In this document: positions 36,895 to 41,314 of the stretch, piece after piece
Numbering within the stretch: position 1 is the first letter of the stretch
Layout of the letters: each line of letters opens with the position of its first letter
NCBI RefSeq assembly: GCF_000230735.2
Contig: NC_019967.1
Coordinates: forward strand, 186,001 to 250,000
Length of the DNA: 64,000 nucleotides
Reading direction: 5' to 3'
Origin: Natrinema pellirubrum DSM 15624
GTDB lineage: Archaea > Halobacteriota > Halobacteria > Halobacteriales > Natrialbaceae
Position numbers and translations under genes: made by a program
The notes under the pieces: generated by a model
What the model was told of the DNA's origin: nothing
The model's input: only the letters and a program-made list of their open reading frames with translations
The model's database searches: none

Positions 36895-37215
36895 AGGCAG
36901 GTCCATTTCTCTTTGTCTACGGTAGAGCGTGTCATAGAATAGTTCTCAGGAGGCGTTGTTCACGGTTTCGCCCTTGAGCAAAACCCATGACTGACGAAAT
37001 TCATAGGATTACACGCGAATTGGAAGCTGTATAATCGCCAAGTTGAGGGTATGAGACGTATTCTATGACACGCTATACGGTATCTTGGTAGACGAACAGT
37101 TGATCACGCCCCATCACGGCCTTCTTTGACAGAGACCCTAACAGTGTTTTGAGTGATACTGATCAGTTTAACTGGCCAGTATTACTTCCCGATGGCGTCG
37201 GGTCTTCTTCCTCTC
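36895..37215 (-). pseudogene. Decayed partial duplicate of the parA partner gene, carrying a MITE
   Basis: Minus-strand segments on both sides of the MITE match the gene at 38358-38852. From 37215 down, the frame pieces read SGSNTGQLN and then DQLFVYQDT (compare SGSNTSQFD and HQLFVYQDTED). Left of the MITE the DNA matches the region encoding DKEKQ. Frameshifts and stops prevent translation. The motif AACTGGCCAGTATTACTTCC, also present in the intact gene, is kept at about 37170-37189. An ancestral tandem duplication followed by decay is the simplest reading. Confidence 0.75.
36925..37075. mobile_element. 151-bp MITE related to the 1069-bp IS
   Basis: The left end GAGCGTGTCATAGAA is identical to the IS TIR; the right end TTCTATGACACGCTA differs in the last base. 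A 7-bp target duplication TACGGTA flanks it (36918-36924 and 37076-37082), the same length as for the full IS. The interior has no coding capacity and no obvious similarity to the transposase gene. Confidence 0.88.
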
Positions 37216-37396
37216 GAGGAATAGTTGCAAGCCCAGTCGATACTGCTGGCGTCCTCACATTCTGCCTTGCTGTAATCGGGATTGCTACCTTCGATACGCC
37301 ACTTCTGACAAGGGGGATCCTCATCGGTGTTGCGACACGATGACGGTGTGCTCAAGTCACATCACAGTCAGCTTTCGGATTGGCCGGTCTAAGGAA

Positions 37397-38340
37397 CGCT
37401 CATCTCGATAAGTCGTAACATCAATTTTCCTTACTCTCCAAGTGTCTTCCAAGATGGACGAGAAGTCTGCGCAAGTGTTCCTTCCACCACGTGAGCGGTG
37501 CTTTGAACGTCTCCGTCTCGCCCGCTTCGGCGAGACGGTGACGTGTGTCCATTGCGAGAGTGACGACGTTGTCAAGCGCGGAACAACCGGAAAAGACGCC
37601 CAGCAGTACTGGTGCAAGGGGTGTGAGACGTACTTCAACGACCTCACAAACACGATCTTCGGCCAACATCGCTTCGAACTGGAAGAGATGTTCTATATCG
37701 TCAAGGAGATGCGATCTGAGCCGACCGCTCAGATCGCTCGTGACCTTGGCCGAGACTACGAAGCTGTTCTCAACTTCGTTCACAAAGTCCAGGATGTGAG
37801 CGGGGAGATCGATGAATTTGAGCTGTACGATGTCTGTGAAGCTGACGAGATCTACGTAACAGCTGGTGAGAAAGGGATCGAAGACGAGGATCAGAGTCCG
37901 CGCAAGCGCGGACTCAAAAAAAGGGACGAGGACGATTCGAATCAGACAAACCACCGGTGTTGACACTCGTCCGTCGGGATGACGGACGAGTTCGGTTTCT
38001 CGTCTGCAAGGATCTCCAAGACGCCGACGAAGACATCGCTGAATACGGTGATGGAAGCGTCATCCTCTGTACCGATGATTACACAATCTACGACGAGATC
38101 GAGGAGAAGGAGGGGGTGGACGGCCATCTGGCCGTCACCCACTCCGACACCTACGTCATCGGCGATGCCCACACGAACACCTGTGAGAACCGCCACAGCT
38201 TCCTTCGCCAGTGGCTGGCGAAGTTCAGAGGTGTCTCAAAACATCATCTCCAACGGTATCTCAATTTCCTTGAACTGAAACTCAACGAACCAGATAGCTG
38301 GTTCGAGAAACTCCTATGTTACAATGTATCGGGATGAGCG
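37397..38340 (+). mobile_element. IS1595-family (ISH4-like) element, 944 bp
   Basis: Inverted ends CGCTCATCTCGATA / TATCGGGATGAGCG (one mismatch) with the 8-bp target duplication CTAAGGAA (37389-37396 and 38341-38348), as usual for this family. It inserted 17 bp past the stop of the ParA partner gene. The transposase frame is broken in an A run. Confidence 0.88.
37454..38337 (+). pseudogene. IS1595-family transposase with a -1 frameshift in an A7 run
   Basis: The first part from ATG 37454 holds the N-terminal zinc ribbon (VTCVHCESDDVVKRG ... YWCKGCETYF) and the first catalytic Asp region (DVCEADEIYVTAGEKG). At 37917-37923 the sequence CTCAAAAAAAGGG interrupts the frame. One base back, the reading becomes KGRGRFESDKPPVLTL and continues through VILCTDDYTIYDEI, the ISXO2-like HSDTYVIGDAHTNTCENRHS and the end at 38337. 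This is either a one-base deletion or a programmed -1 slip at A-AAA-AAG. Confidence 0.8.
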
Positions 38341-38357: not shown

Positions 38358-38852
38358 TTAGAAATCCATACCCCACTCGCGGAGAATATCCTCAGCGTCG
38401 TCTAAATTTTGCATCCCGGCGAGGTATATCGCTTCTCGAGCATCGAGCTTATAGAGATCATCGTCAAATCGGTCCTCAAGATCACGGCGTGCCTGTTTCT
38501 CTTTATCCTCGGTATCCTGGTAGACGAACAGTTGGTGCACACCCCCATCACGGTCTTCTTTGACTGAGTCTCTAACAACTATTCGTGGTAAGTCTGATCG
38601 GTCAAACTGACTGGTATTACTTCCAGACTGCGCCGGGTTTTCTTCCTGATCGATCTGGTCAGTCTGTCCAGTATTACTGACTGTATCTTTTTGCTCACCA
38701 TCCCAATCAGACTGATCAGCATTACCAGTATTACTGCCCATCTTTTTTTGTTCTTCTGACTGGCCAGTAGTACTGACTTCTTCTTCCTGTTCCTCTGGTT
38801 GGTCACTCTGTTCAGTCTCGTCAGCAAACGGGTTTTGGCCACCAGATTTCAT
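38358..38852 (-). CDS. ParA partner protein with repeat linker (ParB/centromere-binding candidate)
   Basis: 164 aa. The N-terminal region is acidic and disordered (KSGGQNPFADETEQSDQPEE). The central linker (about residues 25-88) has four imperfect repeats around STTGQ/SNTGQ (VSTTGQSEEQ, GSNTGNADQSDWDGEQ, VSNTGQTDQIDQ, GSNTSQFDRSD). The C-terminal domain begins LPRIVVRDSVKEDRDGGVHQ and has a helical end (EAIYLAGMQNLDDAEDILRE). The ATG overlaps the parA stop by 4 bp, so the two proteins are translated together. The position is that of a centromere-binding protein, but no known ParB fold was recognised. The linker DNA carries the same motif as the palindrome upstream of parA. Confidence 0.7.
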   Translation of the reverse strand: MKSGGQNPFADETEQSDQPEEQEEEVSTTGQSEEQKKMGSNTGNADQSDWDGEQKDTVSNTGQTDQIDQEENPAQSGSNTSQFDRSDLPRIVVRDSVKEDRDGGVHQLFVYQDTEDKEKQARRDLEDRFDDDLYKLDAREAIYLAGMQNLDDAEDILREWGMDF

Positions 38853-39712
38853 GCTGTGACCTCTGTCGTCGCAAATTGATCGGCAATGAATTCGGCTAGC
38901 TCGTCGAACTTCTCGAGCGTCGGTTCTTCGTAATCGCGAAGATCGCGGTAGTCATCATTCTCCGCGAGTTCGTAGATCGACACTTGGTTGTCCCACGCAT
39001 CACCAAGCATCGATCCACGCTCGCCGATCGACACAGGGGCGATCGGTAGCGACTCCTCCTGGAGTGCATTGAGATATTTCTGGTTCACGTTCGTTCCTTT
39101 GACCTTGTTCGGGACGGCACCGAGAACACCGACGTCGATATCTCCGAGTTCAGTCTCGAGGCCGCTCACCACATCACGGAGGCCCTGAACACTCCGTTCG
39201 CCTTTCGGAGATGGTTCGAAGGGGATGAGAAGGTTCGACGTTGCGTAAACCGCGTTGTACAGGTGTTGTCCCTCAGACGCTGGTGGGTCAATGATGATAA
39301 CGTCGTATTCTGAGGGAATACCAGCGTCGACGAGGACCTGTCGGAGCTGCTTTTCCTTCTCAAACTCCCCCTCGAGACTCGTCTGGTCCTCGAGTTCCTT
39401 GGCCGTCGTGAGGAGATCAGCAAGGTTGCCGAGATTATTGTGGCTTGGAACGAGATCGACGCCTTCAGTCGACTGGATGAGGTCATGAAAATCGCCTCGT
39501 GGTCGGTCAACCATATGGAGCACGAGATTGTCAGCCTCGCTATCAGCTTTCAGATCATCGAGACCGAAGTGATTGGTTAGGCCGCCATCCTGCGGATCCA
39601 TATCGATCCCGAGAACTTTCATTCCTTGATTCGCGTGCGCACGCATGAGGTTAGCCGCAAGCGTCGTCTTTCCGACGCCACCCGCCTCGGACCAGACTGT
39701 ATACGGAATCAT
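38849..39712 (-). CDS. parA: ParA/Soj-family partition ATPase
   Basis: 287 aa. Deviant Walker A SEAGGVGKTTLAAN near the N-terminus (residues about 8-21), then DMDPQDGGLTNHFG, and Walker B YDVIIIDPPASEG. The region LLIPFEPSPKGERSVQGL is typical of ParA proteins, and the short N-terminus lacks an HTH (type Ib-like). ATP-dependent nucleoid binding would segregate the replicon copies. A TATA box and motif array precede it, and the downstream gene is coupled by ATGA overlap. It lies next to orc1 and the origin, as usual on haloarchaeal plasmids. Confidence 0.88.
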   Translation of the reverse strand: MIPYTVWSEAGGVGKTTLAANLMRAHANQGMKVLGIDMDPQDGGLTNHFGLDDLKADSEADNLVLHMVDRPRGDFHDLIQSTEGVDLVPSHNNLGNLADLLTTAKELEDQTSLEGEFEKEKQLRQVLVDAGIPSEYDVIIIDPPASEGQHLYNAVYATSNLLIPFEPSPKGERSVQGLRDVVSGLETELGDIDVGVLGAVPNKVKGTNVNQKYLNALQEESLPIAPVSIGERGSMLGDAWDNQVSIYELAENDDYRDLRDYEEPTLEKFDELAEFIADQFATTEVTA

Positions 39713-39736
39713 ACACGCTAAGCAGATGGTCTCCCA

Positions 39737-39746
39737 ATATAAAAAT
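39737..39746 (-). promoter_or_regulatory. TATA box of the parA operon
   Basis: On the minus strand TTTTTATATT lies about 29 bp upstream of the ATG at 39712, predicting a leaderless transcript. The motif array begins immediately upstream, where a bound protein could block transcription factor access. Confidence 0.55.
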
Positions 39747-39803
39747 ACTAGCCAGACAAGACAGTATTGCTGGCCAGTAATACTGCCCAGTGTTACTAGC
39801 CAA
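39747..39803. repeat. Centromere/operator-like repeat array upstream of parA
   Basis: Contains TACTAGCCAGACA, then the 24-bp near-perfect palindrome at 39762-39785 (CAGTATTGCTGG / CCAGTAATACTG, one mismatched pair), then CCCAGTGTTACTAGCCA. The core TGGCCAGTAATACTG recurs, in one or the other orientation, in the neighbouring gene. Likely binding sites for the ParA partner (parS-like and/or autorepression operator). Confidence 0.6.
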
Positions 39804-39956: not shown

Positions 39957-41222
39957 TCAGACGAGATTTTTGGCAGTCGCGATGTCTGTTAAATCCTCAA
40001 CGACATCATCAATCCGGTTATCTTCTCCAAGAATATCTAATGTTGCCTCCAAATCAGTTTTCACCTCAAAGCGGTAGTGTGATCCGCCCTGAATCCCCCG
40101 GTTCCGTGTTTCCACGATAAGGAACCCCTGCATCCCGAGAGATTGCAAGTGATCGCGAACCCGTCGTTCGACAAGCTGATTTGAATCGAGAATAGCAGCG
40201 ATATCCTTGTATTTCTGATAGACTTGTCGTGTTCGTGCCGGTGTTTCTTCGTCTATCTCGAGGGCAACAACAGAAAGCAACGCTAGCTGGTCCTGTGTCG
40301 TCAGGCTCCGCATTCCTTCTTCGATTCGCTTTCGTTCTAAGATATCACGTGCTTCGCGAACATGTAATTCACAAATCACTTCATCATCGTTGTTTAGGGC
40401 GAGTTCTCCTGCCTTGTACAGCAATCGGATCGCTTGCCGGGCACTGCCTTCGTCTTGAGCGGCAAATGCTGAGCAGAGTGGGATGACATCGCCATCAAGA
40501 ACACCGTCGACAAATGCACGTTCGGCTCGGCGTTCTAGAATACTCGTGAGTTGATTAGCGTTGTATGGTGCGAACTCGATCTCGCTATCGTACAGTGAAT
40601 CTTTGACTTTTGGAGAAAGATTGTCACGGAACTCTAGATCATTGCTGATACCAATAACAGAAATCCATTGGTTCCCAAGATGGCCGTTCTTCCTGGCCCT
40701 CGGAAGTTCGTATAAAAGGTCATCATTGCTACCAATCGAGTCGATCTCGTCAATGACAATAATGATTGTTTCATTGAGGCCGCGTAATTCATCATAGAGC
40801 AGGTCAAACATACTCTGTTGATCAATGCCGCTCGGCTTCTTAGACCCGTCACGAATTTCCTTGATGAGGTGCGCAGCGAGCTGATAGGATGTTGATTGAT
40901 TGTTCGCGCTGGTTTTGATGACGCTTAATTCCAAGTCGTCCTGAGAGTTCGCATACTCGTTTAGGAGATCAAGTTCGTGATCAATGGCGACTGTTTTACC
41001 TTGACCTGTTTTACCATAGAGAAATAGATTGTGAGCGTTAACACCGCGTGTTGCGGGGGCGAGCGCATTCCGGATTTCATCGAGTTCTTTTTCCCTCTCT
41101 GGGAGTTTCTCAGGTTGCCAGTCCTCTTTCAAGACAGACTCATCAGAAAATATCTCGACTGTACTGCCGTATGGATTGCTGTTGAGGCCCGTATCAGATG
41201 AATTCGCTCCGTCGCCGGACAT
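39957..41222 (-). CDS. Orc1/Cdc6 replication initiator
   Basis: 421 aa from ATG 41222 (MSGDGANSSD). A TTG five codons earlier is in frame, but the TATA box at 41249-41257 favours 41222 with a near-leaderless transcript. AAA+ domain: Walker A GKTGQGKT (about residues 70-77), Walker B IIIVIDEID (about 153-161), and sensor regions with VIGISNDLEF. The lid is followed by a C-terminal winged helix (RTRQVYQKYKDIAAIL, LQSLGMQGFLIVE). It should bind the ORB repeats just upstream and load the replicative helicase. A second, truncated orc1 lies at 48168. Confidence 0.92.
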   Translation of the reverse strand: MSGDGANSSDTGLNSNPYGSTVEIFSDESVLKEDWQPEKLPEREKELDEIRNALAPATRGVNAHNLFLYGKTGQGKTVAIDHELDLLNEYANSQDDLELSVIKTSANNQSTSYQLAAHLIKEIRDGSKKPSGIDQQSMFDLLYDELRGLNETIIIVIDEIDSIGSNDDLLYELPRARKNGHLGNQWISVIGISNDLEFRDNLSPKVKDSLYDSEIEFAPYNANQLTSILERRAERAFVDGVLDGDVIPLCSAFAAQDEGSARQAIRLLYKAGELALNNDDEVICELHVREARDILERKRIEEGMRSLTTQDQLALLSVVALEIDEETPARTRQVYQKYKDIAAILDSNQLVERRVRDHLQSLGMQGFLIVETRNRGIQGGSHYRFEVKTDLEATLDILGEDNRIDDVVEDLTDIATAKNLV

Positions 41223-41314
41223 TACATGTGGGACCAATGTAATGAGTGATTATAAACCCCCGTGTCCGGTGTGTCCAGTGTGTCCGCATACTCGATTCTT
41301 TGTATACCCCCACA

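Follow-up and report, generated by a model that had tools for sequence, protein, structure and literature searches.

Sites of one 13-bp-phased family beside parA and inside the partner gene of a probable haloarchaeal plasmid partition locus

In the present study, a family of 13-bp-phased DNA sites was found immediately 5' of parA and again, repeatedly and beyond chance, inside the gene for its small partner protein, as the sequence-only reading of this DNA had proposed. We consider it likely that this is a ParA-type plasmid partition locus, in which an array acting as centromere and operator is written over the coding sequence of the protein that would bind it. The window, i.e., the whole stretch of 64,000 nucleotides that was analyzed, comes from Natrinema pellirubrum DSM 15624; its contig, 287.8 kb long, is one of three in this haloarchaeal genome of 4.35 Mb.

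Results

The window replicon carries a minus-strand gene set consisting of orc1/cdc6, parA, and a 164-aa partner gene. The parA gene (38849..39712, minus) encodes a Walker-type ATPase of 287 aa (Pfam AAA_31, 6e-22), the phmmer relatives of which in the PDB include Soj and other ParA proteins and which has the deviant Walker A motif of ParA/Soj family ATPases (SEAGGVGKTT). The partner ORF (38358..38852, minus) overlaps parA by 4 nt, and the replication initiator gene orc1/cdc6 (39957..41237, minus; TIGR02928, E 4e-113) adjoins the par locus. A TATA-like box, TATTTTTATA, was inferred from the sequence at 39738..39747 (minus), ~30 bp before the ATG of parA. Just 5' of this box, at about -42 to -44 from the ATG, most loci of the family described below have a GTCTGACG box, which is common to five of the six partner clades although their 13-bp words differ; it was present with at most one mismatch in 53/87 loci versus 4/83 in a control stretch, and its variant in the window is GTCTGGC (39751-39758).

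Regarding the sites themselves, exact CCAGTANTACTG was matched three times in the partner gene (38668, 38725, and 38764) and once 5' of parA (39774), which are all its matches in the window, and was absent from 100 dinucleotide shuffles. Of the five copies of the consensus CAGTANTACTG in the genome of 4.35 Mb, four fall in a 1.1-kb stretch of the window, three of them in the partner gene and one 5' of parA; the sole exact copy elsewhere lies on contig C2 (G000:C2:200414; L001). The near-palindromic array previously noted at the parA TATA box consists of three palindromes, CAGTATTGCTG, CAGTAATACTG, and CAGTGTTACTA (39762..39798), which start at 39762, 39775, and 39788 in steps of exactly 13 bp and lie just upstream of the box. 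The in-gene sites proposed near 38668, 38726, and 38761 were recovered by the exact matches listed above and correspond to CAGTATTACTG at 38669..38679 (18.8 bits, coding for part of VSNTG), CAGTATTACTG at 38726..38736 (18.8 bits, part of GSNTG), and CAGTAGTACTG at 38765..38775 (16.0 bits, part of VSTTG), the latter two being 39 bp, or 3 x 13, apart. Besides these three strong sites, the partner gene contains weaker ones. A fourth, proposed near 38611-38623, was confirmed as a degenerate site (AAGTAATACCA when read in the sense of the gene, 5.0 bits) and proved to be the first of three 13-bp-phased units, AAGTAATACCAGT, CAGTTTGACCGAT, and CAGACTTACC, at the junction of the linker and C-terminal domain (38586..38622, minus). 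The reading frame shifts from one of these degenerate units to the next; together they encode SNTS-QFDR-SDLP, with the rare TTA as the Leu codon, and the junction is conserved in most clade-1 loci. Apart from a duplicate downstream of the partner gene, no further site clusters were found on the window replicon.

The duplicate is a decayed, partial, and non-coding copy of the junction region of the partner gene (37080..37260, minus), with three 13-bp-phased sites, GAGTGATACTG, CAGTTTAACTG, and CAGTATTACTT, at 37151..37187. Copies that are 97-98% identical are present in three related genomes, and in relatives the duplicate lies directly 3' of the partner gene, its sites starting ~220-280 bp after the partner stop. 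In the N. pellirubrum genome, an IS1595-like transposase in two ORFs (37442..38337, plus), assigned by a weak match below the curated cut-off (Pfam Zn_ribbon_IS1595, E 2e-4), lies between the partner gene and duplicate. Duplicates with two to three phased sites also occur in the lineage loci L006, L010, L011, and L036-L039. In the duplicates of the window and of its closest relatives, the third unit (CAGTATTACTC and variants) is nearer to the consensus than the coding CAGACTTACC, and, on this small sample, release from coding seems to have brought the unit closer to the consensus of the sites; the duplicates of two more distant relatives retain CAGACTTACC with little or no change.

The C-terminal domain of the partner was detected in 234 of the 394 Halobacteria genomes searched, and 87 parA-partner loci were parsed. 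The overlap between the partner start and parA measures 4 nt in all 59 unique loci and 4 or 1 nt in further loci. The partners sort into six C-terminal types (clades), with type 3 represented by one locus, and in all six a lag of 13 ranks first or second among the repeat periods 5' of parA. The repeat words are CAGTAATACTG (type 1), TGTGTTCATTAGT (type 2), TAGTTGTACTA (type 4), ATCTTAGATA (type 5), and CAGTTATACTG (type 6); in a cross matrix, types 1, 3, 4, and 6 have part of the word in common and types 2 and 5 are unrelated. Site type matches partner clade: a C-terminal-domain tree requires 7 changes of motif label versus 39.6 for shuffled labels, and some of these 7 are due to crude labeling, e.g., at L025, which has a variant word in its sites. 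In some genomes (G096, G390, G378, and G137), loci of two types occur, with a separate word for each locus. Since the repeat word tracks the C-terminal type, these sequence comparisons point to the C-terminal domain of the partner as the array reader. In G378, a single 320-kb replicon (contig C2) carries par loci of clades 1 and 2 (L012 and L122), each with its own array. In Natrinema hispanicum DSM 18328, the same par locus occurs twice (L038 and L077), ~186 kb apart on a 292-kb contig (NZ_SHMP01000007.1), which is possibly a plasmid cointegrate or an assembly effect.

Upstream arrays like that of the window are present in all 37 clade-1 loci, the consensus of which is CAGTANTACTG. Clade 1, to which the window belongs, is the only one in which the array reaches into the partner gene, within the disordered linker; in-gene arrays were searched for in the other clades and were absent. 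Matches to the clade-1 matrix occur in clade-5 genes, and we think that they stem from a conserved TVQL peptide.

In the window gene alone, the codon-preserving shuffle did not give a significant result (3 sites versus 1.75, p = 0.22) because its AGT, AAT, and ACT codons sit mostly in the sites; when codons were redrawn from the usage of six other window ORFs, 0.04 sites of at least 14 bits were expected versus 3 observed (0/2000). The codon-shuffle control that the sequence-only reading had proposed is not passed by the window gene taken by itself and is decisive across homologues, and our claim rests on the family. A weight matrix was built from type-1 (clade-1) upstream regions only and was then scanned over the genes. 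The linkers contain 48 sites of at least 10 bits versus 12.2 ± 2.8 in protein-preserving codon permutations, while the C-terminal parts and parA contain none at this threshold. In a thinned set of 24 loci (<85% identity; threshold of at least 8 bits), there are 35 linker sites versus 6.6 ± 2.1 after codon-preserving shuffles and the lag-13 identity is 1514 versus 1298 ± 21; none of 300 permutations matched the observed value of either. In-gene site pairs are exactly 13 bp apart in 21 cases versus 0.8 and 26 bp apart in 7 versus 0.2. Site density per kb is 17.5 in the upstream 0-150 interval, 0 in parA, 5.8 in the linker, 0 in the C-terminal part, and ~0.1 at 0.3-2.4 kb downstream. The parA genes of clade 1 contain no site of at least 8 bits in 32 kb versus 1.65 in codon permutations, which hints weakly at an avoidance of sites in these genes.

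The reading frames of the in-gene words were also informative. The word is read in the SNT frame, giving S-x-T, in 31 of 36 cases and in another frame, mostly giving VT, in the other five. The family junction SNTG-QFDR-SDLP is encoded by CAGTAATACTGGT, CAGTTTGACCGGT, and CAGACTTACC, i.e., by one DNA unit in three frames, and two adjacent units in the Haladaptatus loci give SVTR followed by DSNT. The junction Leu codon is TTA or CTA in 24/26 loci (15/17 in the thinned set) versus 6% of Leu codons elsewhere. Since 13 is not a multiple of 3, the word occurs in two frames, and the rare TTA is kept, the repeat is selected as DNA. A protein linker repeat, to which the sequence-only reading had coupled the DNA sites, is not supported as the repeating unit; the 13-bp period belongs to the DNA and runs through different reading frames, and the peptide is its consequence, with three units giving SNTG-QFDR-SDLP and two giving SVTR-DSNT. 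A type-1 sub-clade of mostly GC-rich loci (L025-L032, L053, and L056) lacks in-gene sites, which are thus dispensable in this sub-clade and not essential to the system; three of its members in the thinned set have 6-8 upstream sites, and others have 2.

The partner protein has a conserved N-terminus (MKSGxxDPFA), a disordered linker (approximately residues 15-85), and a conserved helical C-terminal domain. In its AlphaFold model, the linker mostly has pLDDT values below 50, and helices are predicted at residues 112-128, 135-145, and 150-159 with block means of 88-93. Searches of Pfam and NCBIfam gave no match to a known DNA-binding family, including the ParB (CTPase/HTH) family, and neither Foldseek with the predicted fold nor a comparison with PDB sequences gave a significant match. 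Helices 112-128 and 135-145 follow a possible short strand, a pattern that makes a ribbon-helix-helix fold plausible, although Foldseek and Pfam gave no support for it. By analogy, the MKSGxxDPFA N-terminus is a candidate for the contact with ParA.

Discussion

The best reading of the present results is that, as originally suggested, the gene for the protein presumed to bind them contains sites resembling a centromere, given that the array tracks the C-terminal clade of the partner. In the mechanism that we favor, the partner would be the centromere-binding protein, its C-terminal domain would recognize the 13-bp-spaced iterons, and its conserved N-terminus would probably contact ParA. The iterons 5' of parA would serve as operator as well as centromere; further phased sites overprinted on the linker would extend the array in clade 1, the disordered linker having a sequence free enough to carry them. 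Bound to both stretches, which lie ~1 kb apart around parA, the partner may form one larger partition complex and may also repress or tune the operon, and the in-gene array may enlarge this complex or add a roadblock. The ParA family membership and the adjoining orc1 gene both fit plasmid partition. Further features of ParA systems are present at the locus, namely, a small gene directly 3' of parA in the same operon and an iterated cis site, the clade-tracking words of which indicate cognate specificity by association. We lean slightly toward the stronger view of a coding centromere, in which the amino acids of the clade-1 linker are largely dictated by a 13-bp-phased array for the same protein; if true, the centromere would include the very gene that encodes the protein binding it.

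Other origins of the motif were considered and rejected. A chance origin is countered by the dinucleotide shuffles, whole-genome counts, and codon permutations, and a role at the RNA level was discarded because the upstream array lies 5' of the parA TATA box. An origin as a protein feature, whereby an SNTGQ linker repeat spread by duplication and its likeness to the upstream array is secondary, might be argued from the 31 of 36 in-gene sites that share one frame and encode S-x-T and from the non-significant permutation of the window gene alone. We regard it as scarcely credible and reject it on account of the exact 13-bp spacing, which is no multiple of 3 (21 pairs versus 0.8), the reading of the word in another frame as VT, and the rare TTA at the junction; furthermore, the upstream array 5' of the TATA box encodes nothing, and single junction sites are found in genes without repeats.

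The in-gene sites may instead be operators only, with the partner or another repressor acting on the promoter-proximal and in-gene sites and with no role as a centromere. The upstream array abuts the parA TATA box, no other site clusters were found on the window replicon, and SegB sites are also present in the segAB promoter, where they may serve feedback (PMC12284271). We nevertheless judge this reading unlikely because long arrays (up to 8 upstream sites of at least 8 bits) and the occurrence of arrays beside parA in all six clades go beyond what a repressor requires. Moreover, a single stretch of DNA often doubles as operator and centromere in ParA systems. It is quite improbable that the repeats are iterons for Orc1 or another initiator that lie beside parA by chance: orc1/cdc6 does adjoin the locus, but the repeat word follows the C-terminal domain of the partner. 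This correspondence does not separate the partner from ParA as the reader because parA and the partner co-evolve and the clade match fits either, and some bacterial type Ia ParA proteins bind their own promoter specifically. The ParA protein of this locus, however, is short (287 aa), starts at the Walker box, and lacks the N-terminal HTH domain of type Ia, and we find it quite improbable that it reads the arrays. The binder may also be a protein encoded at an unlinked locus.

From sequence comparisons, the loci described herein appear to represent a widespread haloarchaeal plasmid-segregation family in which one stretch of DNA would serve as protein code and binding site. They supply, across the class, candidate centromeres together with candidate binding proteins in a form open to direct testing, and among these are centromere/partner pairs that coexist in one cell and appear to be orthogonal. 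They are also a clear example of a disordered protein segment overprinted with an array of DNA sites, the linker reading as SNTGQ repeats because the array is overprinted on it. The clade-specific words may act as incompatibility determinants and could be used as orthogonal parts for plasmid maintenance.

In the literature searched, with subscription journals mostly outside its scope, we found no prior description of the haloarchaeal partner family or its arrays. The parS of pSM19035, which is bound by the omega protein, is similar in that short iterated promoter sites are both operator and centromere, and differs in consisting of 7-bp heptads instead of 13-bp units; we know of no sites inside the gene of its binding protein. 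The SegAB system of Sulfolobales, with a ParA-type SegA and ribbon-helix-helix SegB, uses a palindromic site of 13 bp, and most of its sites are intragenic (PMC12284271). The haloarchaeal loci resemble it in the order of a parA-like gene and a small (here putative) binding-protein gene, in palindromic sites just 5' of the operon, in the 13-bp site size, and in the presence of in-gene sites (PMC12284271). SegB sites are scattered over the chromosome with one shared consensus, whereas the haloarchaeal sites form tandem arrays with 13-bp steps, mostly on plasmids and with clade-specific words, and the in-gene sites of clade 1 lie within the gene of the partner itself. The partner gave no match to SegB in sequence or fold, and the SegAB site TCTAGA-S-TCTAGA is not matched by the clade-1 consensus CAGTANTACTG. 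In repABC plasmids of Alphaproteobacteria, parS lies 5' of the operon and, in Rhizobiales, also at the 5' end of repB (PMC9040568), the binding-protein gene, which is a similar placement; the binding protein and site are unrelated to those described here, and an iterated phased array across a disordered linker was not described there. The sequence-only reading knew of no description of such an unusual design; sites in a binding-protein gene were, however, reported for repB parS (PMC9040568), and most SegB sites are intragenic (PMC12284271). Centromere sites inside genes are already known, and the phased array overprinted on the partner gene would be a new form of them.
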